This document shows, in pieces, positions 538 to 17,151 of a stretch of DNA of 64,000 bases. The stretch spans positions 124,001 through 188,000 of the forward strand of contig NZ_JANFLT010000006.1 in the NCBI RefSeq assembly GCF_024385505.1, written 5' to 3'. This stretch comes from Arthrobacter zhaoxinii. GTDB lineage: Bacteria > Actinomycetota > Actinomycetes > Actinomycetales > Micrococcaceae. Position numbers and translations under genes: made by a program. The notes beneath the pieces were generated by a model that was given only the letters and a program-made list of their open reading frames with translations, was not told the DNA's origin and did not search any database. The stretch's first letter is position 1; the number at the start of each line of letters is the position of its first letter.

Positions 538-1086
538 TCAATCTGTGCTGGTGCTGATCTCTGGCTCCGAGTCTAATGCCGGGACCGGCACCGCCGCTGC
601 CCCTGCGGATGAGGCTGCGGCCGGCGCCCGCCCGGGCGGGCCCAGGAAGGTCCGCAGCTGTTCTTCGAGGATGCTGCGGTCCCGCAGCTCACACTCCCAC
701 ACCACCAGCACGTCCCAGCCCTCCGCCTCCAGCCGTGCCTGGGCGGCAGCATCGCGCTCGACGGTCCGGTTCCGTTTCGCCGCCCAGAATTCGCTGTTGG
801 TTTTGGGTGCGTGCTGGCCCGCACGGCAGGAATGGAAGTGCCAGAAGCAGCCATTGACGAAGAGGACCTTTTTGCGGCCGGCAAAAACCAGGTCCGGTTT
901 TCCCGGCAGCCGAACCTTTCCAAACGAACCGTGCAGACGGAACCGGTACCCCGCAGCGTGAAGGACACTGCGGATCAGGAGTTCGGGTCTGGTGTCCTTG
1001 CCACGGATGCGGGACATTGCGGCTGCGTTGTTCCGGACTGACGGTATCGGCCATGGGTCCAGTCTAGGAACAGATACCAATTGCAT
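538..1086 (-). CDS. vsr: Very short patch repair endonuclease (Vsr) with shifted N-terminus
   Basis: Vsr nicks DNA 5' of the T in T:G mismatches that arise by deamination of 5-methylcytosine. The core is complete: SRIRGKDTRPE, LPGKPDLVF (metal-binding Asp), NGCFWHFHSC (catalytic His and zinc ligands), a conserved FW and Lys/Arg stretch, and VVWECEL. The open frame can start at 1086 (182 aa), but its first 23 residues do not look like Vsr. The expected family N-terminus, MADTVSPEQRSRN, is present from ATG 1054 in a different frame and meets the core at about 1017, as if two bases (AACATG to AATG) were lost. An internal ATG at 1017 would give a 159-residue core protein. No cytosine methyltransferase gene lies nearby in the window. 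Confidence 0.85.
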   Translation of the reverse strand: MQLVSVPRLDPWPIPSVRNNAAAMSRIRGKDTRPELLIRSVLHAAGYRFRLHGSFGKVRLPGKPDLVFAGRKKVLFVNGCFWHFHSCRAGQHAPKTNSEFWAAKRNRTVERDAAAQARLEAEGWDVLVVWECELRDRSILEEQLRTFLGPPGRAPAAASSAGAAAVPVPALDSEPEISTSTD

Positions 1087-1179
1087 TTCGCACTACCTGA
1101 CTTACGCCGCGGGGGTCCGCAAACTCCTAAGGTGTCTTAGGATTGGAGGCACTGATGACCCCTTACAAGGAGGTAAGTG

Positions 1180-1416
1180 ATGTCGGGTTACTTCAAGCTG
1201 GTGGACGCACATGAGGGAAGTTACCGCATTAAGCTCGTTGCCGGCGACGGAACGCTGATGGCGGTATCCACAACATTCGAAACCAAGCAGGAGGCGGCAG
1301 CTGGGATTGCCCAGCTGCGGGAAATCGCAGGAACAGGTCCTGTCATTGACCAGAGCCGGGATGCGGATGTGCTGGGCGAAGCCCGGAACTCGGCCCGCAA
1401 GGCCGCTGCCAGCTGA
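1180..1416 (+). CDS. YegP/DUF1508-like small protein
   Basis: A 78-residue protein with one DUF1508 (YegP) unit: GYFKLVDAHEGSYRIKLVAGDG followed, after a short strand, by TKQEAAAGI. The family is a small beta-alpha fold of unknown biochemical role, often present as one or two tandem units. The ribosome-binding site AAGGAGG at 1167-1173 is spaced 6 bases from ATG 1180, which is preferred to the in-frame GTG at 1177. The C-terminus (about residues 55-78) is polar and Ala/Arg-rich. A strong hairpin terminator follows directly, so it is probably monocistronic. Confidence 0.8.
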   Translation: MSGYFKLVDAHEGSYRIKLVAGDGTLMAVSTTFETKQEAAAGIAQLREIAGTGPVIDQSRDADVLGEARNSARKAAAS

Positions 1417-1432
1417 CGAGTCGACGGATCAC

Positions 1433-1472
1433 AACAGGCCTCCGGAACCCCAGACGGGGAACCGGAGGCCTG
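1433..1472 (+). terminator. Hairpin terminator after the DUF1508 gene
   Basis: A 12-bp perfect stem (ACAGGCCTCCGG pairing with CCGGAGGCCTGT) with an inner CCCC/GGGG pairing and a small loop. It lies 17 bases after the stop at 1416 and before the convergent small gene ending at 1516, so it may act in both directions. Confidence 0.75.
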
Positions 1473-1515
1473 TGTGTGTCGCGCTGACGAATCAGCTGCA
1501 CTATTAAGGGCCCGC

Positions 1516-1659
1516 TTAGGCCTGGTCTTCGCCGCCTTCGGCCGGCTCCTGGGTGTGCTCGCGCTGTTCGTTTGCCTTTTCGGTGGTGTCCCCTTCGGAC
1601 GGCTCCTGCGGATGTGTCCGGTTGGAGTCCTTTTCCTCGTTGGCGCTCTGTTCGCTCAT
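1516..1659 (-). CDS. Small hydrophilic protein, 47 aa
   Basis: A short gene found by reading the minus strand from ATG 1659 to TAA at 1516. The product is 47 residues and almost wholly polar: it starts MSEQSANEEKDSN, is dominated by Glu, Gln, Asp, Thr and Pro, and has no hydrophobic core. The motif QEPxEG occurs twice (residues 18-23 and 38-42 approximately). A ribosome-binding sequence GGAGAAAACC stands just before the start. The composition predicts an intrinsically disordered, acidic protein. I do not recognise a family. The clean start, binding site and lack of an overlapping gene support it. Confidence 0.6.
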   Translation of the reverse strand: MSEQSANEEKDSNRTHPQEPSEGDTTEKANEQREHTQEPAEGGEDQA

Positions 1660-1732
1660 GTGGTTTTCTCCGATTTCTCTTACCGGCCGGCACCGGCATT
1701 CGCCGGTTCTCCTTCAGAGCGGCCCTACCTGC

Positions 1733-1762
1733 AAGTCTAGAAACCCATGCGGAAGTCTAGAA
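1733..1762. repeat. Short direct repeat upstream of the FAD dehydrogenase
   Basis: The sequence AAGTCTAGAA occurs at 1733-1742 and again at 1753-1762, exactly 20 bases apart. It lies about 105-135 bases before the dehydrogenase start. The 20-base (two helical turns) spacing would suit a regulator bound on one DNA face, but no function can be proved from sequence. Confidence 0.35.
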
Positions 1763-1865
1763 CCCCCGCCCGGACGCAACCGCCTTCCGGCAGGGGTGTT
1801 GGTGGCAGGACACGCCTGACTCGAGCTGCTGGCCAGCACCGGCCGGCGCCGGTAGCGTGAGCCGG

Positions 1866-3536
1866 ATGCAGCCCACAGACGCAGACGTCATTGTTGTAGG
1901 TGCCGGACTTGCCGGCTTGGTAGCCACCGCCGAACTGGTGGACGCCGGGCGTTCGGTGATCCTGGTGGAACAGGAGGGCGCCCAGAGTATCGGCGGCCAG
2001 GCGTGGTGGTCCTTCGGCGGGCTATTCCTGGTGGATTCCCCCGAGCAGCGCCGGCTGCGGGTGAAGGACTCAGTGGACCTTGCCTGGCAGGACTGGCTGG
2101 GCACCGCAGGCTTTGACCGGGCAGAGGATTATTGGCCGCGCCAGTGGGCGGAGGCATACGTGCACTTCGCGGCGGGGGAGAAGCGGGCCTGGCTGCAGCA
2201 GATGGGACACCGGCTCTTCCCCGTGGTGGGATGGGCGGAGCGCGGCGGCTACGGGGCCAACGGCCCGGGCAATTCCGTTCCCCGCTTCCACATCACCTGG
2301 GGAACCGGCCCCGGGATCACGGCACCCTTCGAGGCCAAGGTGCGCGACGGCGTCGAACGCGGGCTGGTGCGCTTCGCGTTCCGCCACCGCCTCGATGACC
2401 TCGTCCTGACGGGCGGTGCCGTGACGGGAGTGCGCGGCAGTGTCCTGGAGCCGACGACGGCGCCGCGCGGCACTGCCTCCAGCCGTACCGTCGTGGGGAG
2501 CTTCGAATTCAGTGCCTCCGCCGTGGTGCTCACCACCGGGGGGATCGGCGGGGACCACGACGCCGTCCGTGCCGCCTGGCCCCGGCGGATGGGCCCCGCA
2601 CCCGTAAACATGCTCAGTGGCGTGCCTGAATACGTGGATGGCCGGGGCATCGGCATTGCCTCCGCTGCCGGCGGACGGGTGATCAACCCGGACCGCATGT
2701 GGCATTACGTGGAAGGGATCCGGAACTGGGATCCGGTCTGGAAAAACCACGGGATCCGCATCCTGCCCGGTCCGTCCTCACTGTGGCTGGACGCGGCCGG
2801 CAACCGGCTGCCCGTGCCGTTGTTTCCGGGTTTCGACACCCTGGGCACCTTGGAACACCTGCGCCGCAGCGGACAGGACTACAGCTGGTTTATCCTGAAC
2901 AAGGCCATCATCCGCAAGGAATTTGCGCTGTCCGGGTCCGAGCAGAACCCGGACCTCACCGGAAAATCCGTCCGCGACGTCCTGAAGCGTGCCACTGCCG
3001 GGGTTCCGGCCCCCGTGCAGGCGTTCCTGGACCACGGCGAGGATTTCATCACCGCCGATTCGGTCGAGGAACTCGTGGCCGGCATGAACCTGCTGGCCAA
3101 AGGATCCTCGGTGCGGGGCGATGCCCCGGAACTGTCCGCCGAGGCCGTGCGGCACGAGCTGGAGGCCCGGGACCGCGAAATCCGCAACCCGTTCACCAAG
3201 GACTCGCAGGTCACCGCCATCCGCGGGGCGCGCACCTATCTGGGGGACCGGCTGATCCGCACGGCTGCCCCGCATCCCATCCTCGATCCCAAGGCCGGAC
3301 CCCTGATCGCCGTCCGCCTGTCCGTGCTCACCCGCAAGACCCTCGGCGGGCTGGAGACCGATCTGCAGTCCCGGGTGCTGGCCGACGACGGCGCTCCGGT
3401 ACCCGGTCTTTTCGCGGCCGGGGAGGCTGCGGGCTTTGGCGGCGGCGGCATGCACGGCTACCGGTCCCTGGAGGGGACGTTCCTGGGCGGCTGCCTGTTC
3501 AGCGGCAGGGCCGCCGGCCGCGCCTCCGCCGGCTAA
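1866..3536 (+). CDS. FAD-binding dehydrogenase (FAD_binding_2 / KsdD-like)
   Basis: A 556-residue flavoprotein of the fumarate reductase/3-ketosteroid dehydrogenase-like group; actinobacterial homologues are usually named simply FAD-binding dehydrogenase. The N-terminal dinucleotide-binding motif VVGAGLAGLVAT is at about residues 9-20, followed by a Glu-ending second strand (VILVEQE) and the flavin-contacting GGQAWWS segment. The C-terminus carries the second FAD element, LFAAGEAAGFGGGGMHG, then a small-residue-rich closing helix. It is cytoplasmic with no signal peptide. ATG 1866 is chosen because the fold starts immediately after it; GTG 1857 in the same frame is possible. The substrate is unknown, since the context (FMN reductase downstream) only suggests redox chemistry. 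Confidence 0.85.
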   Translation: MQPTDADVIVVGAGLAGLVATAELVDAGRSVILVEQEGAQSIGGQAWWSFGGLFLVDSPEQRRLRVKDSVDLAWQDWLGTAGFDRAEDYWPRQWAEAYVHFAAGEKRAWLQQMGHRLFPVVGWAERGGYGANGPGNSVPRFHITWGTGPGITAPFEAKVRDGVERGLVRFAFRHRLDDLVLTGGAVTGVRGSVLEPTTAPRGTASSRTVVGSFEFSASAVVLTTGGIGGDHDAVRAAWPRRMGPAPVNMLSGVPEYVDGRGIGIASAAGGRVINPDRMWHYVEGIRNWDPVWKNHGIRILPGPSSLWLDAAGNRLPVPLFPGFDTLGTLEHLRRSGQDYSWFILNKAIIRKEFALSGSEQNPDLTGKSVRDVLKRATAGVPAPVQAFLDHGEDFITADSVEELVAGMNLLAKGSSVRGDAPELSAEAVRHELEARDREIRNPFTKDSQVTAIRGARTYLGDRLIRTAAPHPILDPKAGPLIAVRLSVLTRKTLGGLETDLQSRVLADDGAPVPGLFAAGEAAGFGGGGMHGYRSLEGTFLGGCLFSGRAAGRASAG

Positions 3537-3623
3537 GGGGAGCTACGGAAGGGGCAGCCCCGGAATAAGCCTGCACCCGGCGCTGTTGAAACTCACATGC
3601 AAAAGCATGAAAAGGAGGACAGC

Positions 3624-4247
3624 GTGGTGGATCGCAGGATAGTAGTGGTTTCGGGCGGACTGGGTGTTCCGTCGTCGTCCCGGATGCTCGCGGATGCCCT
3701 TGCCGCGGCGGCCAAGGCGGAAATTGAGGCCCTGGGGCTCAGCGTCAGCGTCACCACTTTCGAACTGCGTGAATACGCTGTGGACATCGCCAACAACATG
3801 GTGACCGGGTACGCCGCGCCCCGGCTGGAAGCAGCCATTAACGAGCTTATTGCCGCTGATGCGCTGGTTGCGGTGACGCCGGTTTTCACGGCTTCCATGA
3901 GCGGGCTGTTCAAGTCCTTCTTCGACGTTGTCGACAACACTGCGCTGGACGGCAAGCCGGTCCTGCTCGGCGCCACCGGCGGCAGTGCCCGGCACTCCAT
4001 GGTCCTCGACTACTCCCTCCGGCCCATGTTCAGTTACCTTCGGGCACGGATCGCTCCGACCGCCGTCTACGCCGCGCCGGGGGACTGGGGGACGGGTGAA
4101 ACCGGAACGGGCTCGCTGGAGCAGCGGGTCCGACGCGCCGCCGGTGAACTTGTGGCACTGCTGGGCGATGCCCCCGCACCTAAGCGCCGGGATCCTGCGC
4201 AGTCGCTTCCCTTCGAGGAACTGCTCGCCCAGACACAGCGCAAGTAG
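3624..4247 (+). CDS. NAD(P)H-dependent FMN reductase, CE1759 type
   Basis: A 207-residue flavodoxin-fold reductase that would use NAD(P)H to reduce FMN, commonly supplying a two-component oxygenase. The N-terminal strand and phosphate loop read VVVSGGLGVPSSSRMLADAL. Further landmarks are AVTPVFTASMSGLFKSFFDVVD, LLGATGGSARHSM and a C-terminal tail. This pattern matches the CE1759-type subgroup. The start is set at GTG 3624 because AAAGGAGG lies at 3611-3618, five bases before it; the upstream ATG at 3597 has no such site. The gene follows the FAD dehydrogenase by about 90 bases on the same strand and could share its transcript. Confidence 0.8.
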   Translation: MVDRRIVVVSGGLGVPSSSRMLADALAAAAKAEIEALGLSVSVTTFELREYAVDIANNMVTGYAAPRLEAAINELIAADALVAVTPVFTASMSGLFKSFFDVVDNTALDGKPVLLGATGGSARHSMVLDYSLRPMFSYLRARIAPTAVYAAPGDWGTGETGTGSLEQRVRRAAGELVALLGDAPAPKRRDPAQSLPFEELLAQTQRK

Positions 4248-4268
4248 GCCCGGCCCGGGGATGAACTC

Positions 4269-4721
4269 CTAGGTGTCGACCCGGGGGCCGGAGGCGACGT
4301 CGCCGTCCCAGCCCAGGTTGCTGGCCATCCGCTGCAGGACCGCCAGGAGGGCCGTGTATTCCTCTTCGGTGATGTTGTCCGTCATCAGCTGCCGGATGCG
4401 GTCCACCGCACCGCGGAGGTTTTCCAGGCTTCGGCTGCCGAGGTCGGTGAGGTGGTACTGGCCGTCTTCCAGCAGTACCCAGCCGGATTCGCGCAGCTCT
4501 TCGATGAGCTCCGCGGAAGTGCCGGTCTCCACCGCAGGGAAGAAGGGGCGCAGCCCGTCCGACAACTCCTTGGAGGAGGCGGGGCCTTCCACCAGCAGGT
4601 TCATCATCTGCCATTGCCGGCGGGTGACGCCGTGTTCTTCGAAGCTGGCGCCAAACTGGTCATCAACCAGTTGGTCGACGAGCTTGAGCCAGAATCCGAT
4701 GGGCCGCTCCTGATTCGCCAT
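4269..4721 (-). CDS. MarR-family transcriptional regulator
   Basis: A 150-residue winged-helix regulator. The N-terminal dimerisation helix contains FWLKLVDQLVDDQF. The reading helix region is VTRRQWQMMNLLVEGPASSKELSD, the wing is GWVLLEDGQYHLTDLGSRSL, and the C-terminal helix returns to the dimer interface. MarR proteins repress nearby or own genes and are released by small aromatic or oxidising ligands. It converges with the FMN reductase (21-base gap), so the regulated promoter is probably its own, at 4722-4760. The ligand is unknown. Confidence 0.8.
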   Translation of the reverse strand: MANQERPIGFWLKLVDQLVDDQFGASFEEHGVTRRQWQMMNLLVEGPASSKELSDGLRPFFPAVETGTSAELIEELRESGWVLLEDGQYHLTDLGSRSLENLRGAVDRIRQLMTDNITEEEYTALLAVLQRMASNLGWDGDVASGPRVDT

Positions 4722-4839
4722 CACTCCACTGTACAAATCATTCCCCGTGCAGGGAATGGCAGTGGTGCAGGCAGTCGGCCGCAGTTGAAGCGGGCTTGGG
4801 TGCAGGTTCCGGACCGGGCGCCCGGGGTCGGGGTCTTGC

Positions 4840-5100
4840 TCAGTCGAAACGGGCCTGGGTACCGCACCGGGGACAGGGGGCGGACCTGGCCAGGTCCAGG
4901 CACACCGCGCAGACGGGAAGGTCGCCGGTGTCATCGCGCAGCGGACGGTTGGGCATCTGTTTGCCGCAGTAGGGAACCGGGCGCCGCGCACGGCTGCGTG
5001 CCCGCCGCTTGCAGGGGGTGCAGAAAACGTGCACCAGGTCGTCCTCATCCTTGGGGCGAGTCTCGACCGGCCGGACCAGCGTTGAATCCTGGACGCTCAT
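4840..5100 (-). CDS. Small zinc-ribbon protein, 86 aa
   Basis: An 86-residue basic protein starting at ATG 5100, preceded by the Shine-Dalgarno-like AAGGAAAGG. Cysteine pairs CTPC (about residue 28), CAVC (about 64) and CPRC (about 77), plus a single Cys in VPYCGKQ, suggest one or two zinc ribbons. A patch of Arg residues (RRARSRARR) follows the first pair, suiting nucleic-acid contact. I do not recognise the family, and the function is unknown. The region from 5101 to 5305 holds no other gene I can support. Confidence 0.65.
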   Translation of the reverse strand: MSVQDSTLVRPVETRPKDEDDLVHVFCTPCKRRARSRARRPVPYCGKQMPNRPLRDDTGDLPVCAVCLDLARSAPCPRCGTQARFD

Positions 5101-5305
5101 TGCCTTTCCTTGGTACGCATGTGGCTCTGCCCGCAGACGTCCGACGGCGGAAGCGGGCCCTGGTTCCAAGGTAACGGTTTCTATGCACTGTAGAATTTGG
5201 CCGAGCCGGTACCGGGGCGCAATTCAGCGGGTATCCGGCGGTGCGGCGTGCTCGAATTCACGGACATAGGCCAGCCTCACGAACACCGGAAGGAGGCCCT
5301 TGTTG

Positions 5306-8300
5306 CTACTGCAGCAGTGACCGGATGTCGTCCGCCGTGAGCGCGGAACTGAAGACGGCGTCGTCGTCCATGACGGACGTGAACAGCTTCGCCTTTTGCT
5401 CCTTGAGCGCCATGACCTTTTCCTCGATGGTGTCCCGGGCGACCATGCGGTAGACCATCACGTTGTTTTTCTGCCCGATCCGGTGCGTGCGGTCCACTGC
5501 CTGGGCCTCTGCCGCCGGGTTCCACCACGGATCCAGCAGGAAGACGTAGTCCGCTTCCGTCAGGTTCAGGCCGAATCCGCCGGCCTTGAGGCTGATCAGG
5601 AACACGGGGACCACGCCGTCCTTGAACGAGGCAATCACCTCGGCCCGGTTGCGGGTGGAACCGTCGAGGTAGGCGTACTTGATGCCCTGTTCGTCCAGCC
5701 GCTGGGCAGCCTTCTTCAGGAACGAGGTGAACTGGCTGAAGATCAGGGCGCGGTGGCCTTCGGCGGTAACGTCTTCGAGCTGGTCAAAGAGCACGTCCAG
5801 CTTGGCGGACGGTACGCCGTCGTACTCCTCCGGCTCCACGAGTGACGCGTCGAGGCTGAGCATCCGCAGCAGGGTGAGGGAGCGGAACACGATCATCCGG
5901 TTCCGGTCCATGTCCTGGATCAGGCCCATGAGTTTCTGGCGTTCGCGCTGCAGATGCGTCTCGTAGATCTTGCGGTGCTTCGGATGCAGTTCCACCTCGA
6001 GGACCTGCTCCTGCTTTTCCGGCAGGTCCTTGGCCACGGCTTCCTTGGTGCGGCGCATCAGCAGCGGACGGATGCGCCGGCGCAGCCGTGCCAGCAGTTC
6101 CGGGCTGTCGCCGCGTTCGATGGGCCGCTGGTATTCGTCGGCGAACTTCCGGGCGGACGGGAACAGGCCGGGTGCCACAATGGCGAACAACCCCCAGAGC
6201 TCCATCAGGTTGTTTTCCATCGGGGTGCCGGTAATGGCCAGCTTGAACGGTGCGGGCAGGTCCCGGGCGCACTGATGCACGCGCGTCACCCGGTTCTTGA
6301 CGAACTGCGCCTCGTCCAGGATCAGTCCGTCCCAGTCCAGCTTCCGGTAGGAGGCGAAGTCCAGGCGGAACACGGCGTAGGAAGTAAGGACGACGTCGGC
6401 GCCGGCCACCACTTCGGCCAGCGGGATGCGGGACTTGCCGCTGGTGTCGGAGACCGTCACCACCTTCAGCCCGGGGGCGAAGCGTGCCGCCTCGGAGGCC
6501 CAGTTGGGGACCACTGACGTGGGGGCGACCACGAGGAAGGGATGAGCCGGTTTGGTCCCGCCCTGCTCCCGGGCATGGGCCAGCAGGGCCAGGGTCTGCA
6601 GGGTCTTGCCGAGCCCCATGTCGTCCGCCAGGATTCCGCCGAGGCCGTGATCCCACAGGAACGCCAGCCAGTTGAAGCCTTCCTGCTGGTAGGGCCGCAG
6701 GCTGGCCTCGAGTCCGGCCGGCAGCGGCACCGGGTCCACCGAATCCAGCTCCAGCAGGGCGGAGACGGACTCCCGCCAGGCGGCAGCTTCCTCGGTTTCC
6801 TCCGCCAGTTCCTCCAGCTCGGACCACAGTCCGGCCTGGTACCGGCTGATGGACAGTTCCCCGGTATCCCATTCCTGCAGGCCCTGTGCTTCATTGATCA
6901 GCGCATGCAGGTGTTCGAATTCAGGCCGGTCGAGGGAAAGGTAGGTGCGGTCCACCAGCAGGAGTTTGGTTTTGCCCTGGGCGATCGCTTTGAAGATATT
7001 GGCGAATGGCACCAGCCGGCCCTCCACGGTGACCATGACGGCGAGGTCGAACCAGTCGCGGCGTTCGGTTTCCACCGTGGTGATCTTCAGCTTCGGCGCC
7101 TCGAGCAGCTCCCGGTAATCGGGCCGCGTTCCGGAAATTTCCACCTGGACGCCGGTCAGCTTCTCCAGCTCCGGCAGGACATGCTCGGTGAACTCGGCGG
7201 CTTCAATCTCCCGCAGGGTCCGGTCGCGGGGCACCGCGTGCAGTGTTTTCCCCACGGCAGCCAGGATTTCCGCCTCGGCGGGGATATCGCGGTAGGAGGT
7301 GTCGTCGTCGTCCGCCGGCCTGCCTGTCCGCGGCACGCGGGTGAGCGGCAGCCGGGTGGAGGAGCTTCCGTGCCGGTAGGACCAGTTCCAGGTCAGGGTC
7401 AGCTGGTCCTCGGGACCGAATCCGGCGGTGAGGACCAGCACCGGAGGCTCGATCTCGGGGAACTCCACGGAGTCATCGCTGCTCGTGACAGGCAGTACCT
7501 GCCGCAGCCGGGGATAGAACTTTTCGAGGAAGACCGGAGCATCCGCCTTCGGCACCATCACCGGAGCGCCCTGCAGTAGCAGGCCCTTGTCCTGTTCGGT
7601 GAGGGTCTTGGCGGTGGGCGCCAGCGTGATGGTGTTCTGCGGCGAGCGGAGGTAAATGCCGTGGCTGCCGATGATCCCGGCATCCTCCAACGGGACCGGC
7701 ATGCCGTCCACTTCGAGTGTGGGCAGCAGCTGCAGCGGCGCCGGAGTGTCCCCGCCGGCGGCCCGGACGTCGAGGGACAGGGTGGCCAGCTTTCCCACCC
7801 GGACCGCGGTGTCCTTCTTGGTGCCGACAAAGGGGATGCCCAGCCGCACCGCTTCATCCAGCAGCTGCCAGAGCAGGGGATTGGCAAAGTCGTCCAGATA
7901 CAGCCAGGAATCGTTCTGCCCGAAGTAGCTCACGCCGTTGGAGCGGTGCAGGGCGGGGAACTGGGAGAACCAGCGGTGCTGGTCCGGATCCAGCCGCAGT
8001 CCGTAGGTCTGGTAGCTGATGTTGCTCCAGGCCAGGTTGTTTTTGACCCAGTTGCCCTTGGAGTTGCGCACCACCGGACGGACGCCCAGCCGGAAGGGTG
8101 TGGCCCGGTGCCGGCTGCGCGGGGCCGGGGCGGCACCCCACCGGGACGCTGCGGCCGCGACAATGTTCCGCAGTTCGAACTGCAGTGCCAGGGGAGTGGT
8201 TTCAACGGGCTTGGTGCTGTCCGCCAGATCCGCATCAATGAGGGTCTGCAGCGATTGCTGCCAGGCCGGCACGGACGGACGCATGGTCGGGGCGGAGAGC

Positions 8301-8620
8301 TCCTGCCGGGAAATCAAGTGCTCGGTGTTGCTCTGCAGGGCAGCGGCGGCCACGTGCTTGCAGTCGAAGCCCAGGGGGCAGCTGCAGTGGTTATCCAGCA
8401 GACGGTAGTCACCCTGGCGTTTGGCGCCGAGCTGGAGCATGATCCGGTAGGGAACAGCCGCACTGCCGCGTACCTGCGCACGCAGCACCTCGCCCTGGGC
8501 ATCCCACTCCAGGGCTTCCACGGCGCCGCCCTTGGCATAGGTCTGGCCCCGCTGGAACGCCGATCCGCCGACCACGCGGATGACGTCGGTAACGTCTACG
8601 AGCGGAGGGGTTTCGAGCAT
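5306..8620 (-). CDS. SNF2-family helicase with N-terminal SWIM zinc finger
   Basis: A 1104-residue DNA translocase of the bacterial SNF2/RapA-like group. An N-terminal SWIM finger reads CSCPLGFDCKH (CxCx5CxH, about residues 79-89). A long central region of the bacterial_SWI2_SNF2 type follows. The ATPase core has Walker A DDMGLGKT, motif II DEAQ, motif III ITGTPMENN, and the C-terminal helicase half with FSQFTSFL, SLKAGGFGLNL and DRTHRIGQ. Such proteins remodel protein-DNA complexes; the target is not known. All ATPase motifs are intact, so it should be active. It stands alone on the minus strand with about 200 bases free downstream. Confidence 0.92.
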   Translation of the reverse strand: MLETPPLVDVTDVIRVVGGSAFQRGQTYAKGGAVEALEWDAQGEVLRAQVRGSAAVPYRIMLQLGAKRQGDYRLLDNHCSCPLGFDCKHVAAAALQSNTEHLISRQELSAPTMRPSVPAWQQSLQTLIDADLADSTKPVETTPLALQFELRNIVAAAASRWGAAPAPRSRHRATPFRLGVRPVVRNSKGNWVKNNLAWSNISYQTYGLRLDPDQHRWFSQFPALHRSNGVSYFGQNDSWLYLDDFANPLLWQLLDEAVRLGIPFVGTKKDTAVRVGKLATLSLDVRAAGGDTPAPLQLLPTLEVDGMPVPLEDAGIIGSHGIYLRSPQNTITLAPTAKTLTEQDKGLLLQGAPVMVPKADAPVFLEKFYPRLRQVLPVTSSDDSVEFPEIEPPVLVLTAGFGPEDQLTLTWNWSYRHGSSSTRLPLTRVPRTGRPADDDDTSYRDIPAEAEILAAVGKTLHAVPRDRTLREIEAAEFTEHVLPELEKLTGVQVEISGTRPDYRELLEAPKLKITTVETERRDWFDLAVMVTVEGRLVPFANIFKAIAQGKTKLLLVDRTYLSLDRPEFEHLHALINEAQGLQEWDTGELSISRYQAGLWSELEELAEETEEAAAWRESVSALLELDSVDPVPLPAGLEASLRPYQQEGFNWLAFLWDHGLGGILADDMGLGKTLQTLALLAHAREQGGTKPAHPFLVVAPTSVVPNWASEAARFAPGLKVVTVSDTSGKSRIPLAEVVAGADVVLTSYAVFRLDFASYRKLDWDGLILDEAQFVKNRVTRVHQCARDLPAPFKLAITGTPMENNLMELWGLFAIVAPGLFPSARKFADEYQRPIERGDSPELLARLRRRIRPLLMRRTKEAVAKDLPEKQEQVLEVELHPKHRKIYETHLQRERQKLMGLIQDMDRNRMIVFRSLTLLRMLSLDASLVEPEEYDGVPSAKLDVLFDQLEDVTAEGHRALIFSQFTSFLKKAAQRLDEQGIKYAYLDGSTRNRAEVIASFKDGVVPVFLISLKAGGFGLNLTEADYVFLLDPWWNPAAEAQAVDRTHRIGQKNNVMVYRMVARDTIEEKVMALKEQKAKLFTSVMDDDAVFSSALTADDIRSLLQ

Positions 8621-8771
8621 GGTTTTATCGTCTCACGCAGTACTGACGGTTTCCGCCGTCGGGTTCCTGCGGGGGATTTGGCAGGCTTCGGGGTGCCCTG
8701 TTTAGGATGTTAGTAGCGCGGGTCACAATGGCGTGATCTGCGTGTCACTCTTCTTTTAGCGTTCGGCTCTT

Positions 8772-9690
8772 TCACTGTTCGGCGCAGGCCCCCTGGACAA
8801 AGCCATAGACGGCGGCCGTGAAGTCATCCGGAGGTGCCAGGCGGACCTGGCCGGAGTATCCACCCACCGTCATGGTCAGGGGCAGATGGGTTCCCAGCTT
8901 GTCCTCGGCAAGCGCATGCGCGTCGCAGCGCTGGGGCGCAACGCCCAGCGCCAGCTCTTGAGGCCCGTCGAAACCGTTCACCCTGATTTCGGTCGGCCAG
9001 GCGGGCCCCGCCGGTGCCAGCAGGGGTGTGGTATCAATCCGGTGCAGGAGCATGGTGCCGGTGCCGGCGGGTTCAATCAGGACGCGGACGACGGCGGTAC
9101 GGCCGTTGGGTGCCACCTCCAGATGCGGATCGGTGGAGAAACGGGCCACCGCGGCCATGCCCTGCCGCAGGCAGTCTTGGTAGTGCAGCACCGAGAAGTC
9201 GCCGCGGGGGTCGGCCGCAGCCAGTTCTCGAACCCCTGTGGACAGTTCCACGGAAACCACAGCGGGACGGAGGTCCGGACCGTCCGGCGGGCAGGCCGGA
9301 CCGGCCAGGGGGACCGGCAGGCTGATGGTCGCTCCGGAGCGCGGCCGGACCGGTTCCGGGCGTGCAGGCAGCCACTCCTGCGGATCGGAATAGCGCTCTG
9401 TGAGCAACCGGGCGCCGGAGACCTCCACGGCTTCAGGAGTGGAATTGAAGAGTTTTAGCAGGACAGTGGGTTCGGCCGCGAACAACCTGCTGGCGGACAG
9501 CTCAGCGCTGACGCCTGACGTTAGCTGTTCCGGCAGGGGATCGGTTGGCGCGCCCTCCACTGTGTCTCCGGCCAGAAGCGTCTCCGGCCAGAAGCCCGAC
9601 CGTGAGACAGGTTGCCACACCGATGGACAGGGCACTGGCGGCAACGTTCGTCCGACGCCCGTGGAACCGGACAGGAACAGCGCGGATCAT
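8772..9690 (-). pseudogene. Exported protein gene split by a 16-bp tandem duplication
   Basis: Two reading frames make one protein. From ATG 9690 (or GTG 9696) the first frame reads a typical export signal: Arg-containing start (RFHGRRTN), then a hydrophobic stretch AASALSIGVATCLTVGLLAG. It meets a perfect 16-bp tandem repeat at 9564-9595 and is thrown out of frame. The second frame continues from LLAGDTVEGAPTDP to the stop at 8772 (about 265 residues, beta-rich, with cysteines near the end). Removing one repeat copy joins GLLAGD directly to TVEGAPTDP without any other change. The mature domain belongs to no family I recognise. As written, the only intact ORF (start 9644) lacks an export signal. 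Confidence 0.75.
9564..9595. repeat. Perfect 16-bp tandem duplication inside a coding region
   Basis: GTCTCCGGCCAGAAGC occurs at 9564-9579 and again, immediately and without a mismatch, at 9580-9595. Sixteen is not a multiple of three, so the duplication shifts the reading frame of the surrounding minus-strand gene. Collapse to one copy restores it. Confidence 0.95.
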
Positions 9691-9754
9691 GAGCACAACG
9701 TTCCCACTATGGATGGCATAAACCCACCCCCCGTACTGTGCTACCTTGTGGAAG

Positions 9755-9769
9755 ATAAATCTGATTTAT
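9755..9769. promoter_or_regulatory. 15-bp palindrome, probable operator of the idonate/gluconate operon
   Basis: ATAAATCTGATTTAT is a perfect inverted repeat (7-base arms around one T), lying 54 bases before the kinase start at 9824. It is an AT-rich island in GC-rich surroundings, which fits a core promoter with a repressor site. The best candidate binder in the window is the GntR/FCD regulator at 15144-15881, because this family commonly controls gluconate-type operons. The pairing is inferred. Confidence 0.6.
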
Positions 9770-9823
9770 TGTCCGCTGGGTCACACGAATCAGAGGTGAA
9801 GATGCGTCTGAGGGAGTGTGGCC

Positions 9824-10345
9824 ATGCCGTCGTCCAATGTTCCGCCGCTGATCGTGATGGGCGTTCAAGGCAGCGGTAAGTCCACATCCGGACGCGCTAT
9901 TGCCGAGGTCCTGGGTCTGCCGTTCATCGACGGGGATGATCTGCACCCGGCCGCCAACAGGGAAAAGATGGCCTCCGGCCATCCCCTCAACGATGCGGAC
10001 CGGGAGCCCTGGCTGCGGGCCATCGGAACGGTCCTGGCGGACGGACTCGCCCGCGGCGAATCCACCGTCGTCGCCTGTTCGGCGCTGAAACGCCGGTACC
10101 GGAACCTCATCCGCTCCTTCGCGCCGGACACCCGGTTTGTGCACCTGACCGGCGACCGCGACCTCATCGCGGACCGGCTCTCGCACCGCAACCACGAATA
10201 CATGCCGCCCGCACTGCTCGACTCCCAGTTCGAAACCCTGGAACCGCTCGGGTCCGACGAAGCCGGTATCCCGGTGGACATCCACCTGCCACCAGCTGAA
10301 ATTGCCGCGGCTGTCGCTGCGGTATTCACCGCCAACGGACACTGA
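9824..10345 (+). CDS. gntK: Gluconokinase
   Basis: A 173-residue P-loop kinase that phosphorylates D-gluconate to 6-phosphogluconate, which enters the pentose phosphate pathway. The Walker A loop GVQGSGKS is at about residues 13-20. The family signature DGDDLHPAANREKM follows, then GHPLNDADREPWL and ACSALKRRYRNLIR. The length is normal for the GntK/IdnK family. ATG 9824 follows GAGGGAG at a 7-base spacing; GTG 9818 is an alternative. It is the first gene of a four-gene operon, 30 bases ahead of the permease, so it could equally be called idnK. Confidence 0.93.
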   Translation: MPSSNVPPLIVMGVQGSGKSTSGRAIAEVLGLPFIDGDDLHPAANREKMASGHPLNDADREPWLRAIGTVLADGLARGESTVVACSALKRRYRNLIRSFAPDTRFVHLTGDRDLIADRLSHRNHEYMPPALLDSQFETLEPLGSDEAGIPVDIHLPPAEIAAAVAAVFTANGH

Positions 10346-10375
10346 CGTCCGTACCCCACCCCAGATAGGACGAAA

Positions 10376-11779
10376 ATGACCGATCTAGAACTCAACTGGA
10401 CGTTGAGTACTCCCGGCCTGCTCGCCGTCGCCGTCGCAGCCATCGCGCTGCTGCTGGTGATGATCATGAAATTCCGTATCCACGCGTTCCTGGCGCTGAT
10501 CACGGTCAGCCTGCTGACCGCCGTCGCCACCGGCATCGCCGCCGCCGATCTGGTGCCCACGCTGCTGAGCGGCTTCGGCACCACCCTGGCCAGCGTGGCG
10601 CTGCTGGTGGGCCTCGGTGCCATGCTGGGACGGATGCTTGAAGTTTCCGGCGGTGCGGAGGTCCTGACCAACGCGCTGATCACCAAGTTCGGACAGAAGC
10701 GGGCCTCATTGGCCCTTTCGGTGGCCTCGTTGATGTTCGGCTTCCCGATCTTCTTCGACGCCGGCCTGGTGGTTATGCTGCCGATCATCTTCACCGTGGC
10801 CCGCCGCATGGGTGGCTCGCTGCTGACGTACGCCTTCCCCGCGGCCGCGGCGTTCTCCGTCATGCACGTGTTTGTGCCGCCGCACCCCGGCCCCGTGGCC
10901 GCCACCGGCCTGCTCGGTGCCGACATCGGCCTGGTCCTGATCTTCGGCCTGCTTGTGGCCATCCCCACCTGGTACCTGGCCGGCTACCTCTTCGGTACCT
11001 TCCTGGGCCGCAAATTCGACATCCCGGTGCCCTCCATCCTGGACGCACCTAAGGGGTCGGCGGAGTCCGAATTCCGCTCCGCTCCCAAGCTCGGCACCAT
11101 CGTGCTGCTGCTCCTGCTTCCGTTCGTTTTGATCTTCCTCAACACCGGCCTGAACATGCTGGCCACCGCCGAGGTCGTCTCCCTGGACACCGGCTGGGTG
11201 CAGGTCCTCCGCTCCCTGGGTGAAACCCCGGTTGCCCTGCTGATCACCGTTTTCCTGGCGATGTGGTTGCTCGGCCGCCGCGAGGGCAAGAGCGCCTCGC
11301 TGATCGAGACCGTTGTGGACAGTGCCCTGGGCCCGGTCTGCTCGATCATCCTGATCACCGGCGCCGGCGGCATGTTCGGCGGTGTGCTGCGTGCCAGCGG
11401 CATCGGCACCGCCATCGCCGATTCCCTGGACGCGGTGGGACTGCCGGTGATCGTGGCCGGCTTCCTCATCGCCGCCATCGTCCGCCTGGCTCAGGGATCG
11501 GCCACCGTTGCCCTGACCACTGCTGCGGCGCTGGTGCAGCCGGTGGTCCTGGACAACCCGGACTTCAACGGGGTCCAGGTGGTGGCCATTGTGCTGGCAC
11601 TCGCCGGCGGCTCGGTCTTCGCCGGCCACGTGAACGACTCCGGCTTCTGGCTGGTCAGCAAGTTCTTCCAGATGGACACCAAGACCACCCTCAAGACCTG
11701 GACTGTCGGCCAGGCCCTGATCGGTGTGATCGGTTTCGTCTTCGCCCTGGCCATCTACCTCATCGCAGCGCAGTTCTAG
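10376..11779 (+). CDS. gntP: GntP-family gluconate/idonate:H+ symporter
   Basis: A 467-residue inner-membrane permease with about 12-14 hydrophobic segments, typical of the GntP family that imports gluconate, L-idonate and related aldonates with protons. Recognisable segments include FGFPIFFDAGLVVMLPI, HVFVPPHPGPVAATG and the C-terminal RLAQGSATVALTTAAALV with GHVNDSGFWLVSKF. Spacing to the kinase is 30 bases and to the dehydrogenase 16 bases. Because the flanking enzymes are those of L-idonate breakdown, the substrate is probably idonate and/or gluconate. Confidence 0.93.
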   Translation: MTDLELNWTLSTPGLLAVAVAAIALLLVMIMKFRIHAFLALITVSLLTAVATGIAAADLVPTLLSGFGTTLASVALLVGLGAMLGRMLEVSGGAEVLTNALITKFGQKRASLALSVASLMFGFPIFFDAGLVVMLPIIFTVARRMGGSLLTYAFPAAAAFSVMHVFVPPHPGPVAATGLLGADIGLVLIFGLLVAIPTWYLAGYLFGTFLGRKFDIPVPSILDAPKGSAESEFRSAPKLGTIVLLLLLPFVLIFLNTGLNMLATAEVVSLDTGWVQVLRSLGETPVALLITVFLAMWLLGRREGKSASLIETVVDSALGPVCSIILITGAGGMFGGVLRASGIGTAIADSLDAVGLPVIVAGFLIAAIVRLAQGSATVALTTAAALVQPVVLDNPDFNGVQVVAIVLALAGGSVFAGHVNDSGFWLVSKFFQMDTKTTLKTWTVGQALIGVIGFVFALAIYLIAAQF

Positions 11780-11795
11780 GGGCCGGGGAACAGCG

Positions 11796-12569
11796 ATGAC
11801 TACCAGCATGTTTGATATTTCCGGCCGGATCGCCCTGGTGACCGGCTCCAGCCGGGGCATCGGCAACGCGATTGCCCGCGGCCTGGCCGGCGTGGGCGCC
11901 GTCGTCGTACTCAACGGACTGGACCCGGACCGGCTGGAGGCCGCCCGCGCAGAGCTCGCCGCTGAGTTCGGTGCGGACCGGATCTTCGCCCGGCGCTTTG
12001 ACGTCACGGACGCGCAGGCAGCGGCCGACGGCGTCGCCTGGGTGGAGCGCGAAGTCGGGCCCCTGCGCATCCTCGTCAACAACGCCGGAGTCCAGCACCG
12101 TGAACCGATGCTGGACCTGGACGTGGCGGACTGGGAGCGGGTGCTCCGGACCAACCTGACCAGCGCGTTCCTGGTGGGCCGTGAGGCAGCCCGGCACATG
12201 ATCGCCCGCGGGAGCGGGAAGATCATCAATATCGCGTCGGTCCAGACGGACCTGGCCCGGCCGACCATTGCCCCGTACACGGCATCCAAGGGCGGCGTCC
12301 GAAACCTCACCCGCGCCATGACGGCCGAGTGGGCGGGGGAGGGACTGCAGATCAATGCGATTGCCCCGGGCTACATCCAGACGGAGATGACGCAGAGCCT
12401 CGTCGATGACGAGGCGTTCAACTCGTGGATCCTCGGCCGCACTCCGGCCCACCGCTGGGGCACTGTGGAGGACATCGTGGGCCCGGCGCTCTGGCTCGCC
12501 TCGGATGCTTCGAACTTCGTCAACGGCCAGGTCGTCTTCATTGACGGCGGCATGACCACCGTGGTCTGA
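11796..12569 (+). CDS. idnO: Gluconate 5-dehydrogenase (5-keto-D-gluconate reductase), SDR family
   Basis: A 257-residue classical short-chain dehydrogenase. The cofactor loop TGSSRGIG is at residues 16-23, NNAG near residue 92, the catalytic Ser in IASVQ, and the Tyr/Lys pair in YTASKGG. The end IDGGMTTVV is typical. Its place between a gluconate permease/kinase and an idonate dehydrogenase supports reduction of 5-keto-D-gluconate to D-gluconate. A Shine-Dalgarno-like GGGGAA stands before ATG 11796. A generic SDR acting on another keto-sugar acid remains possible. Confidence 0.85.
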   Translation: MTTSMFDISGRIALVTGSSRGIGNAIARGLAGVGAVVVLNGLDPDRLEAARAELAAEFGADRIFARRFDVTDAQAAADGVAWVEREVGPLRILVNNAGVQHREPMLDLDVADWERVLRTNLTSAFLVGREAARHMIARGSGKIINIASVQTDLARPTIAPYTASKGGVRNLTRAMTAEWAGEGLQINAIAPGYIQTEMTQSLVDDEAFNSWILGRTPAHRWGTVEDIVGPALWLASDASNFVNGQVVFIDGGMTTVV

Positions 12570-12584
12570 AAAGGACACCCTGCC

Positions 12585-13634
12585 ATGACCGAACTGCCAG
12601 CCACCACCCTCGGGGTAGTAGCCCACGGCGCCGGGGACCTCCGGGTGGAACACGTGCCGCTGGTACCCGCGGGGACTGATGAAGCCGTGGTGGAAATTGC
12701 CTACGGCGGCATCTGCGGGTCTGACCTGCATTACTGGCAGCACGGTGCGGCGGGGGAGTCCATCCTGCGTGCGCCCATGCTGCTGGGGCACGAGGTAGTG
12801 GGACGGGTGCTGGCGCCGGCCGCGGACGGCACCGGGCCGGGTCTCGGCACCGCCGTTGCCGTGCACCCGGCAACCCCCGGCCCGGGGAACGGAACCCGGT
12901 ACCCTCTGGACCGGCCGAACCTTTCGCCCGGCTGCACGTATCTGGGCAGTGCTGCGAGGTTTCCCCACACGGATGGCGCCTTCGCCCGCTACGTGAACCT
13001 GCCGGCGCGGATGCTGCGGGTGCTTCCGGAGGAGCTGCCGCTCCGCCGCGCCGCATTGGTGGAACCCGCGGCGGTGGCCTGGCATGCCGTGTCCCGTGCG
13101 GGCGACGTTCGGGGTAAACGGATACTCGTGGTGGGTTCGGGCCCTATCGGAGCGCTGATCACGGCCGTGCTGCGGACCCGCGGGGCCGGGGAAATCATTA
13201 CCACGGACATGCACGAAGGCCCCCTGGCCATTGCCCGCACGCTCGGCGCGGACCGAAGCCTTCCCGCAACCGATGCGGATGCCATTGCCGGCGTCGATGC
13301 GGACATCTGCTTCGAATCCTCCGGGAGCTACCGCGGCCTGATGTCTGCGGTGACGGGAGCCACCCGCGGCGGCCGGGTGGTGATGGTCGGGTTGCTGCCT
13401 TCGGGTGAGCAGCCTGCCCTGATCTCGCTGGCGATCACCCGGGAACTGGAACTGGTGGGTTCCTTCCGGTTCAACGACGAAATCGAGGAGGTCATTGCTG
13501 CCCTGGCCGACGGCAGCCTGCAGGCGGATGCGGTCCTCACGCACGAGTTCGCCGTCGAGGACACCCTGGCGGCCTTCGAGACGGCACGGGACGCCTCCCG
13601 CAGCGGAAAGGTGCTGCTGCGCTTCGGCGACTGA
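12585..13634 (+). CDS. idnD: L-idonate 5-dehydrogenase, zinc MDR family
   Basis: A 349-residue medium-chain dehydrogenase that would oxidise L-idonate to 5-keto-D-gluconate. The catalytic zinc region is CGSDLHYW, then GHEVVG; the Rossmann loop is VVGSGPIGAL. FPHTDGAFARYV matches the idonate-dehydrogenase branch. The usual structural-zinc loop with four cysteines (as in Escherichia coli IdnD) is replaced by a Pro/Gly-rich stretch at about residues 90-110 containing only one Cys. The protein therefore appears to have lost its structural zinc. It is the last gene of the operon, 15 bases after idnO. Confidence 0.87.
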   Translation: MTELPATTLGVVAHGAGDLRVEHVPLVPAGTDEAVVEIAYGGICGSDLHYWQHGAAGESILRAPMLLGHEVVGRVLAPAADGTGPGLGTAVAVHPATPGPGNGTRYPLDRPNLSPGCTYLGSAARFPHTDGAFARYVNLPARMLRVLPEELPLRRAALVEPAAVAWHAVSRAGDVRGKRILVVGSGPIGALITAVLRTRGAGEIITTDMHEGPLAIARTLGADRSLPATDADAIAGVDADICFESSGSYRGLMSAVTGATRGGRVVMVGLLPSGEQPALISLAITRELELVGSFRFNDEIEEVIAALADGSLQADAVLTHEFAVEDTLAAFETARDASRSGKVLLRFGD

Positions 13635-13729
13635 CCCGCCGCGACTGACCCGCCGTGAATCCGGGCCTTCGACCATCCGGGCCGGTGCCAAACCGCGGGA
13701 GGAAAACCCGGCTGCGTTATGATCCCGGC

Positions 13730-14302
13730 ATGAATGATTACCTGAGGCTGCAGGAATGGTCATCGGCGCTGCTCAGCGGGGAAAGGATCCGGTTCCGTGA
13801 GCTCCGGGAGCAGGATCTGCCGCATCTGTCCGAATGGTGGAATGATCCCGCTTCCGCCATCCTGCAGCAGAACAGGGTGGCCGCCCGTCCGCAGGAAACG
13901 ACGGCGGACATGTTCCGGGCGTGGAGCAAAAACGAGTCGCCGTCCGGCTTCGGGTACAGCATCGTCAATCCTGCCGAGCGCCTGATAGGGCATATCAGTG
14001 TCTGGGGCATGTCCGTCCCGGAGCGTATTGCCACCATGGCGATCATCATCGGCCCCGAATTCCAGGACCAGGGATTGGGGCGTGAATCCCTGCAGCTGGG
14101 ACTGCGGATTGTCTTCGAGGAAATGGGTGCGCACAAAGCCGAGCTGCAGACCTGGTCCTACAACGAGCGGGCTCTCCATCTGTACCGGTCGCTGGGGTTC
14201 AAGGAAGAGGGGCGCCGCCGTGCCGCGGTGTTCCACCAGGGGGTTTTCCACGACCAGATGCTGCTGGGGATGCTGGAGGAGGAGTACCGGGTTTCCCCGT
14301 AG
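13730..14302 (+). CDS. GNAT-family N-acetyltransferase
   Basis: A 190-residue acetyltransferase of the RimJ/RimL-like GNAT type. It shows RIRFRELREQDLPHLSEWWND at the start, the acetyl-CoA-binding region IGPEFQDQGLGRESLQLGLR (pyrophosphate loop QDQGLG), and NERALHLYRSLGFKEEGRRR near the C-terminus. The acceptor is unknown; homologues modify ribosomal proteins, polyamines or antibiotics. ATG 13730 is chosen because the family fold starts close to it, although the upstream GTG 13655 is in frame. The gene converges with the following hydrolase gene, with only three bases between the stops. Confidence 0.82.
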   Translation: MNDYLRLQEWSSALLSGERIRFRELREQDLPHLSEWWNDPASAILQQNRVAARPQETTADMFRAWSKNESPSGFGYSIVNPAERLIGHISVWGMSVPERIATMAIIIGPEFQDQGLGRESLQLGLRIVFEEMGAHKAELQTWSYNERALHLYRSLGFKEEGRRRAAVFHQGVFHDQMLLGMLEEEYRVSP

Positions 14303-14305
14303 CGG

Positions 14306-15091
14306 CTACCGGGGGAGAGCGGGCGCGTGTGCCCGGGCGCTGGTCAGCCAGTCATCCATAAGCACCGAGACTGCGGCGGGACGCTCCATGTACAGATGGT
14401 GGCCTGCGGCGTCGAGCACTGCGAACGTTCCGCGCACGTAGTGGTCTCTGAGCGCCAGGCCGTCCTCATATCCGGTGACGTGGTCCTGCCGGCCGAAGAT
14501 ATGCAGCGACGGCGCCTCGAACGGTTCCGGATGGGCTGCCTCCGGCTCCTGCCGCAGCGCGTAGTCCGCGGCAATCCGCCCGGTCACCTGCTGATCCGTC
14601 CCCCGAAGACCGGGAAGGACAAATTCGTTGAACGCCGCGAGGGTGCCCGGAGTCTGGATTACGGCTATTTCCAGGAAGTCATCATCGGCTGCTTGGTCCG
14701 GAAGGGCCGCGGAGATGACTGCGCGTGCGGGGAGCACCCGCTTGCGGTGGTTGGCTGTGAAGACCGCTCCGAGGGTAGCCAGCCCGAGCACCTGGCTGCG
14801 CATCGCGTGCGCCACATGGCGGGCAACCATGCCGCCGAAGGAATGTCCGATGATCGCGAACGGCTCGTCTCCCAGTCGGTCCCGAAGCTCGTTGACGACG
14901 CCGTCGGCCACGTCCTGTGCGCTGGCGACCGGTCCGGGAACCGCCTGTTCGGTCCACGGCAGGTCGAGGTAGATGCGCCGCCATGAACTGTCAGCCAACG
15001 AGCTTTCGAGGGGCAGCATGCTGCGGTGGTCGAGCTCGAAACCGTGCACCAGTATCAGCGTTGTGCCCTGTCCCGCCTCATGTGCTATCAC
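14306..15091 (-). CDS. Alpha/beta-hydrolase
   Basis: A 261-residue alpha/beta-hydrolase. The oxyanion strand reads LILVHGFELDH, the nucleophile elbow is GHSFGG, the acid lies in IFGRQDHVTGYE, and the catalytic His is in DAAGHHLYMERP. No signal peptide is seen, so it is cytoplasmic. The family includes esterases, lactonases and haloperoxidase-like enzymes, and the substrate cannot be stated. Being between the idonate operon and its probable regulator, a sugar-acid lactonase role is conceivable but unproven. Confidence 0.82.
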   Translation of the reverse strand: MIAHEAGQGTTLILVHGFELDHRSMLPLESSLADSSWRRIYLDLPWTEQAVPGPVASAQDVADGVVNELRDRLGDEPFAIIGHSFGGMVARHVAHAMRSQVLGLATLGAVFTANHRKRVLPARAVISAALPDQAADDDFLEIAVIQTPGTLAAFNEFVLPGLRGTDQQVTGRIAADYALRQEPEAAHPEPFEAPSLHIFGRQDHVTGYEDGLALRDHYVRGTFAVLDAAGHHLYMERPAAVSVLMDDWLTSARAHAPALPR

Positions 15092-15143
15092 CGCATCATC
15101 CTATGCGTGCTGTCACTGAAGGAAGGGGAGGAGTCACCGGTCT

Positions 15144-15881
15144 TCAGACCGATTCTGAAGAGGGCAGCGGCTGGAAAATCCGCGGCTCGTGCGCCCAGAC
15201 CCCGCCGACCTCGTCCATGGTCCGGCGCATAATCTTCTCCATCGCATTCCGGGCCAGCTCAGGGTTGTGGGCCTGGATGGCGTGGGCAACGTCCATATGC
15301 AGCTGCAGGGCCTCGTCATGCGGGTGGTCCGGCATCAGTCCGTAGTGGGTCCGGCCGCGCAGCACCTCAGCAATCATGGACTGCATCTGGTTGAACATCT
15401 CATTTCCGGATGCCGCCAGCACCAGTCCGTGATACCGGATGTCGAGGTCCAGGAACAGCTCCAGGTCTCCGGTCCGGCCGGCTGCCCGCATCTGCGTTGC
15501 CACCGTCAGCAGCTCGGCTGCCAGCTCGTCGGGGGCATGGACCGCTGCCAGTTCCGCTGCGGCGGGTTCGACGGCGGAGCGCAGCTCGGTGAGTGAGCGG
15601 AGCTGGCCGCCTTTTCCGGAAGCGGCGAGACGCCACCGGATCACCGTGGCGTCAAAGACATTCCAGTCAGTTGCGGGGAGAACCCGGATACCCACGCGCT
15701 TGACGGTTTCCACGAGGCCCAGTGACTGCAGCACCCGCACCGCCTCGCGGGCAACGGACCGGGACACCTGCAGTTCGGTTTCGAGGTGTTCCGAATGCAT
15801 GGTGTCTCCGGCAGCAAGGTCACCGGAGACAATCCGCATGCCCAGCGTTTCCATCACGAGGTTGTGCAGCCGGGAACTCAT
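15144..15881 (-). CDS. GntR-family regulator, FCD (FadR-like) subfamily
   Basis: A 245-residue repressor. The N-terminal winged helix includes ETLGMRIVSGDLAAGD, the recognition helix VSRSVAREAVRVLQSLGL and wing ETVKRVGIRV. The C-terminal all-helical FCD ligand domain has the metal-binding pattern with Asp/His residues (LDLDIRYHGLVLAASGN, MDVAHAIQAHN). FCD proteins of this kind usually bind sugar acids. It is the only GntR gene in the window and lies 1.5 kb beyond the idonate operon, so I infer that it controls that operon through the palindrome at 9755-9769. No similar palindrome was seen before its own start. Confidence 0.87.
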   Translation of the reverse strand: MSSRLHNLVMETLGMRIVSGDLAAGDTMHSEHLETELQVSRSVAREAVRVLQSLGLVETVKRVGIRVLPATDWNVFDATVIRWRLAASGKGGQLRSLTELRSAVEPAAAELAAVHAPDELAAELLTVATQMRAAGRTGDLELFLDLDIRYHGLVLAASGNEMFNQMQSMIAEVLRGRTHYGLMPDHPHDEALQLHMDVAHAIQAHNPELARNAMEKIMRRTMDEVGGVWAHEPRIFQPLPSSESV

Positions 15882-15962
15882 GCGGACCGGCGAGGCATTG
15901 CTGCGGTAAGAATCACCTCTGTATTGTACGCACCGGCGTCGTAACGTCCGTCACAGCAGTAG

Positions 15963-17000
15963 CTAGCCGACAGCCTGCGTTGTCGCGTTTCCCTGCGGTT
16001 TCACCACCGGGAAGCTGCCGTGCGGTTCGTCGTCCTCTTCGAAATGGTTATAGGCCCGAGCCACAATCAACGGATCAGGTGCGTGTGCAATGGAGCGATC
16101 CTTGTTCGGGTATTCCACCGTGTTCAGCACGTGGCGCATCGCCTCGAGCCGGGCGCGTTTCTTGTCGTTGGACTTCACTGCGGTCCAGGGAGCGTCTCCG
16201 GTATCCGTGTAGAAGAACATGGCCTCCTTCGCCTCCGTGTAGGCGTCCCACTTATCCAGGCTGGCCAGGTCAGTAGGTGAGAGCTTCCACTGCTTCACGG
16301 GATCGGTTTCCCGGGCAGCGAACCGGGCCATCTGTTCCGCCCGGCCCACCGAGAACCACAGCTTGTGCAGCAGGGTGCCGGAGTTGACGAGCATCCGTTC
16401 GAGCTCCGGAACCTCCCGCATGAACTCAAGGTACTGCGCCGGGGTGCAGTACCCCATTACGCGTTCGACGCCGGCCCGGTTGTACCAGGAGCGGTCCATC
16501 ATCACAATTTCGCCGCCGCTGGGCAGCGTACGGATATACCGCTGGAAGTACCACTGGGTCTGTTCCTCGGAGGTGGGCTTTTCCAGGGCCACCACCCGTG
16601 CACCGCGGGGATTCAGGTGCTCGTCGAACCGCTTGATCGCTCCGCCCTTTCCGGCGGCATCCCGGCCCTCGAAGATGATGAGCATTTTTTGGCCGGTTTC
16701 CTTGACCCACAGCTGCATCTTCAACAGTTCAATCTGGAGGCGGCGCTTCTGCCGGTCATAGGTCCGCCGGTTGAGCTTGGTGTCATAGGGATAGTTCTGC
16801 CGCCAGGCGTCGTCATCGACGTTGATCTTGAGCTTCTTGCCCTTCTTTTTGAGCTCCTGAAGCTCATCGAGTTCCTGGGCGTAGTCCTCAGCGACAGCGA
16901 CGCGCTGCCCGTTCAGGCTTTGCCCGTCCGACTCCGCTCCGTCGGTTACCGGCGGCTGCCGGGGCGAAACTTCTTTGGTGCCGTTCTTATTGTTTGCCAT
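15963..17000 (-). CDS. ppk2: Polyphosphate kinase 2
   Basis: A 345-residue PPK2-family enzyme, which transfers phosphate between polyphosphate and nucleotides (class I members make NTP from NDP). Walker A is FEGRDAAGKGG, followed by the lid-related DEHLNPRGARVVALEKPT, and Walker B with MMDRSWYNRAGVERVMG. The single-domain layout and a charged N-terminal extension (about 60 residues, with KKKGKKLK) match class I/II enzymes. It stands alone between the GntR gene and a divergent exported protein gene, and should be cytoplasmic. Confidence 0.92.
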   Translation of the reverse strand: MANNKNGTKEVSPRQPPVTDGAESDGQSLNGQRVAVAEDYAQELDELQELKKKGKKLKINVDDDAWRQNYPYDTKLNRRTYDRQKRRLQIELLKMQLWVKETGQKMLIIFEGRDAAGKGGAIKRFDEHLNPRGARVVALEKPTSEEQTQWYFQRYIRTLPSGGEIVMMDRSWYNRAGVERVMGYCTPAQYLEFMREVPELERMLVNSGTLLHKLWFSVGRAEQMARFAARETDPVKQWKLSPTDLASLDKWDAYTEAKEAMFFYTDTGDAPWTAVKSNDKKRARLEAMRHVLNTVEYPNKDRSIAHAPDPLIVARAYNHFEEDDEPHGSFPVVKPQGNATTQAVG

Positions 17001-17151
17001 GACATCTCCGCTGCAGGTCCGTTTTTTCCGAATCTACGCGGCACTGCCCACGGATTGGAAGAGGAAACGGGTTCTGTGCACGACGGCGTCGGGCAGCTTG
17101 GGCGGCGCGCCTGACCGGGAGCCGGTGCCCGGCCGCAGATAATGGGTGGCG

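Follow-up and report, generated by a model that had tools for sequence, protein, structure and literature searches.

Tandem duplications in pneumococcal capsule genes were reportedly described by Waite in 2001 and in 2003, under titles that speak of phase variation. In serotype 8 pneumococci the capsule is reported to be lost through a tandem duplication in wchA (PMC4022640). In fission yeast, microhomology-mediated tandem duplications occur in the ssp1 gene, and reversible tandem duplications in fungi are reviewed in the same article (PMC13207564). A further paper (PMC13410964) deals with slippage in a single-base run, which is a mechanism different from the duplication of a 16-bp unit. For Arthrobacter, a limited literature search found hardly anything on phase variation with tandem repeats.

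Here we describe a 16-bp tandem pair in a gene of Arthrobacter zhaoxinii that we call X. The gene lies in a stretch of 64,000 nucleotides (the window), which is part of a 789-kb contig in a 12-contig draft of a 3.5-Mb genome. The explanation that we favour, and that we consider probable, is that a tandem duplication, recent and of an ordinary kind, has shifted the frame of a dispensable gene for an exported protein.

The tandem pair and the reading frames of gene X

Gene X is placed on the minus strand between two other genes of the window. On one side stands a large helicase gene (5306-8620, minus strand), conserved in the other strain of the host species (G028), in the related species G017 and in G016 and G007, whose product we take to be a SNF2-type helicase. 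On the other side stands a gene for a P-loop kinase (9818-10345, plus strand; Pfam AAA_33/SKI), presumably of the gluconokinase type, gntK.

The first-pass annotation had reported two perfect copies of a 16-bp unit at 9564-9579 and 9580-9595. Both copies, on the minus strand like the gene, were confirmed in the sequence, by Tandem Repeats Finder (9564-9595, period 16, 2.0 copies, 100% match) and by our own scan for perfect pairs, which recovered the same pair at 9564. In 200 first-order Markov simulations of a 64-kb sequence, scanned for units of 10-60, none of the perfect pairs had a unit as long as 14 (there were 26 pairs of unit 10, nine of 11, one of 12 and one of 13), and therefore the pair at 9564 is not due to chance.

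Perfect short tandem pairs are not rare in the host species. Three with a unit of at least 10 were found in the window, at 9564 (16 bp), 13627 (14 bp) and 17971 (15 bp, within a longer repeat array), and two in the 75 kb scanned in the sister strain G028; given the lengths scanned, the window strain shows no excess of such pairs. The 14-bp pair (13627-13655) spans the stop codon of a gene for a zinc dehydrogenase-like protein and is absent from G028, in which the surrounding sequence differs in total by about 34 bases and is shorter by this amount. The array at 17970-18081 is an imperfect one of 15, 30 and 45 bp, in which G028 differs by one 30-base unit.

No microhomology was found at the junction of the 16-bp duplication: the perfect match covers the 32 bases of the two copies and stops there, the flanking bases on both sides being different. 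There was also no notable hairpin that might provoke slippage (DNA folds with z of -1.1 and -0.2). A transposon footprint, in which two target-site copies are left behind, was considered as well and nothing else points to it; moreover target-site copies are usually shorter than 16 bp.

The two copies separate two reading frames of the minus strand. The signal-peptide or anchor frame (9502-9696, 64 amino acids) starts at GTG 9696 or at ATG 9690, the latter aligning with the start of the G017 gene, and encodes a basic stretch and a hydrophobic segment before it ends at the stop 9502-9504. The mature part is read in another frame (8772-9686), which is open for 304 codons and is out of frame with the signal peptide; the protein P0001 corresponds to its 8772-9578 portion. 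It is 82% identical to G017, and no further stop or frameshift was found in the mature part. The duplication point falls at the junction of the N-terminal hydrophobic segment with the mature protein. The length of 16 bp is not divisible by three, so translation from the normal start would reach the stop after 64 codons, and the two frames thus bear out the earlier claim that the two-copy state truncates the protein. A candidate internal start is GTG 9560 behind GGAGA (9549-9560, minus strand), in the mature frame, which would give a product without the signal peptide.

The related species G017 has an intact gene of 326 amino acids. Aligned with it, the window shows exactly 16 additional columns at the repeat; apart from the piece ends, the 5' part of the alignment contains a single further gap, which lies before the repeat and is 18 columns long, a multiple of three. 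No tandem pair was found at the matching point of G017, which has the one-copy length and a diverged unit. The intact gene and the exact gap of 16 columns indicate that the one-copy length is most simply the older state and that two copies are derived. This call is made with one relative, G017, the other members of the genus being 36-44% identical in the mature part and having different N-termini.

The mature parts of X and of its G017 counterpart were compared over 266 codons, in an alignment with a few misaligned N-terminal residues. The dN/dS values were 0.107/0.356 (NG86) and 0.093/0.507 (YN00), that is a ratio of about 0.2-0.3, and the differences numbered 30, 21 and 70 at the three codon positions. 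Both results indicate that selection maintained the frame during most of the period after the window species and G017 split. The neighbouring genes are under stricter constraint than X, with NG86 ratios of about 0.14 for gntK, 0.05 for gntP, 0.08 for the SNF2 gene and 0.07 for an SDR gene. As the mature part shows past constraint, little decay and no other stop, the break in the frame looks recent. The recent mutation that had been offered as one option is thus supported by the open mature frame, the low dN/dS and the one-copy length in G017.

Tandem pairs were also looked for in 64 loci of the X family, 14 from the genus and 50 from genome contigs, at least nine of which are the same places seen twice. 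A perfect pair inside the X frame was present in three (L014, L083 and L095), all with units divisible by three, so that among these loci an out-of-frame perfect pair is seen in the window gene alone. Moreover, the G017 linker beside the duplication point contains an imperfect 15-bp array. These observations suggest that tandem changes are tolerated while the frame holds, and that the linker is a stretch with frequent tandem changes, frame-keeping elsewhere, of which the pair in the window appears to be one accident.

Distribution, neighbourhood and family of gene X

The flanks of the locus are conserved in the sister strain G028 (97.1% identical over window 1-8753 and 96.7% over 9733-21138), and nothing of X was found there between the conserved neighbours. 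The interval 8754-9732 is replaced in G028 by 1.85 kb with an unrelated gene on the opposite strand, encoding a 589-aa lipoprotein (L031:2390-4159). Relatives of this lipoprotein occur in three of the 29 genomes of the genus, G028 included, and its gene also comes after the helicase in G016 and G007. In G016 the order is helicase, lipoprotein and a TauE permease with the final 30 residues of X at its C-terminus, which hints that the lipoprotein gene and X were once adjacent and were lost in different lineages. Elsewhere in the window, about 3 kb (35234-38325) are missing from G028, and at 44547 G028 carries about 6 kb more.

Gene X is present in 15 of the 29 genomes of the genus, the one of the window included, and in 45 of the 245 sampled genomes of the host family. 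Two cases in the genus are partial (the last 30 residues in G016 and a part in G024). The permease of G016 (L040:3910-4899) carries just these last 30 residues, as if by an in-frame deletion; the partial gene of G024 (L015:1498-2043) has lost the expected sequence at both ends of the frame and resembles a decayed copy. The absence from G028 and the patchy distribution in genus and family indicate that X is dispensable and often lost. Since G028 lives without it, losing X probably has little or no effect on fitness. At the same time, X was under stronger constraint than a useless gene would be, so that strains lacking it may be at a disadvantage. The close comparison set consists of one intact close relative (G017) and one sister strain (G028).

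When P0001 alone was compared with the genome contigs, 117 pattern matches and no relative were obtained, and a search with the profile A1 gave 50 X loci, in Actinobacteria. In eight of the 50, all from Arthrobacter (L049-L056), a longer frame encodes a TauE/SafE permease with X as its C-terminal portion. BLAST detected no permease in the remaining 42, many of which have a lipoprotein-like N-terminus, as judged by eye. The fused protein of A. citreus (L035:2165-3724) matches the Pfam family TauE with an E value of 3.9e-50, and its gene stands with a rhodanese, a second TauE and a metallo-beta-lactamase/rhodanese protein, a company that suggests sulfur handling. The window strain and G017 are without these sulfur-type neighbours at the X locus.

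Four cysteines are invariant or nearly so across the family. No Pfam family was found for P0001 at E values up to 1; 48 family members gave no Pfam match above the cut-off, with four single-member hits (best E 0.05-0.1), and NCBIfam gave none above the cut-off, with one member at 0.0074. A profile search of solved structures returned four hits of no meaning (E 0.56-0.84). The predicted model of mature X (pLDDT 90.6, pTM 0.83) consists of two beta-sandwich domains and a C-terminal helix. Its best match among solved structures is a domain of the YadV chaperone (Z 7.9, rmsd 2.4, 78 residues), and the best Foldseek hit has an E value of 1.9e-6, but a TM score of 0.23. With Z below 8, these matches of the model probably reflect common Ig-like beta-sandwich arrangements, and no family is claimed. 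We consider the X family, which would comprise exported two-domain proteins with TauE/SafE fusions and no Pfam entry, as the more interesting by-product of this work and as a testable lead on the function of the family.

Alternative readings of the locus

In the explanation that we favour, a single 16-bp tandem duplication would have arisen recently in the lineage of the window strain, at the junction of the hydrophobic segment with the mature protein, where it would shift the frame so that translation stops after 64 codons. The exported protein would then not be made and the gene would be a young pseudogene, whose loss is presumably tolerated, as in G028, and near neutral. We infer both the recency of the duplication and the absence of selection on it. 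The features expected of a frameshift pseudogene are found here: a perfect pair inside the gene with a unit not divisible by three, and in G017 an intact homologue of one-copy length.

The first-pass annotation had also offered a reversible on/off switch, in which slippage or recombination would gain and lose the 16-bp copy and the population would hold both states. The frame-breaking effect of the pair is real, and the switching itself found no support beyond the general revertibility of tandem copies. It is true that tandem pairs can revert in principle, that X encodes an exported product at a locus which varies from strain to strain, and that tandem duplications reportedly knock out or switch capsule genes in pneumococci. 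Nevertheless, there are 2.0 copies and not the several units, or the repeat kept in relatives, that characterize phase-variable genes; G017 has no conserved repeat at this point, its one-copy length containing a diverged unit. The junction moreover lacks the microhomology that would let the same duplication recur, no notable hairpin accompanies it, and the out-of-frame perfect pair has no counterpart in the other scanned X genes. Relatives sharing the two copies had been named as evidence against the earlier claim, and this is not what we found, G017 having the one-copy length and G028 being without X. On balance we regard a switch as unlikely. If the pair did flip it would matter more than a decaying gene, since it is mainly in pathogens that switches of this kind are known. 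A wider version, in which the interval between the SNF2 gene and gntK would be a hot spot for the exchange of unrelated exported proteins and the pair a reversible off state of X, strikes us as quite improbable; if true, the species would vary its surface by gene replacement together with a tandem-repeat switch.

The strain could also really have one copy and an intact X, the second copy being an error of assembly or sequencing. The assembly is a draft of 12 contigs, X is otherwise intact, and an intact gene would need no special history. Against this, the pair lies within a 789-kb contig and its 32 bases are short compared with any common read, and assemblers collapse short repeats more readily than they invent them; there seems to be little chance of such an error. 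Translation from GTG 9560 would make the mature domains without the signal peptide, so that the duplication would alter where the protein is located and not whether it is made. Although GGAGA stands five bases before this GTG in the right frame, the same letters code for Gly-Asp-Thr-Val in the intact G017 gene, and the nearly invariant four cysteines and the lipoprotein relatives suggest a function outside the cell, so that we hold an internal start to be very improbable. We are left with a recent duplication in a dispensable gene as the probable explanation; the break in X would be an ordinary mutation which shows how a dispensable gene begins to decay.

Comparison with known systems

The pneumococcal capsule duplications resemble the case of X in that a tandem pair in a coding region disables a gene acting at the cell surface. 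They differ in the bacterium and in the gene, which is unrelated, and at X no switching, mixture or reversion is seen. With ssp1 of fission yeast X shares a short tandem duplication within the coding sequence that is accompanied by a premature stop, whereas the junction in X has no microhomology and X is bacterial. The closest likeness is with ordinary strain-specific frameshift pseudogenes that arise by short tandem duplication: the perfect pair, the unit not divisible by three and the intact one-copy relative are common to both, and between this class and X we see no difference of note.
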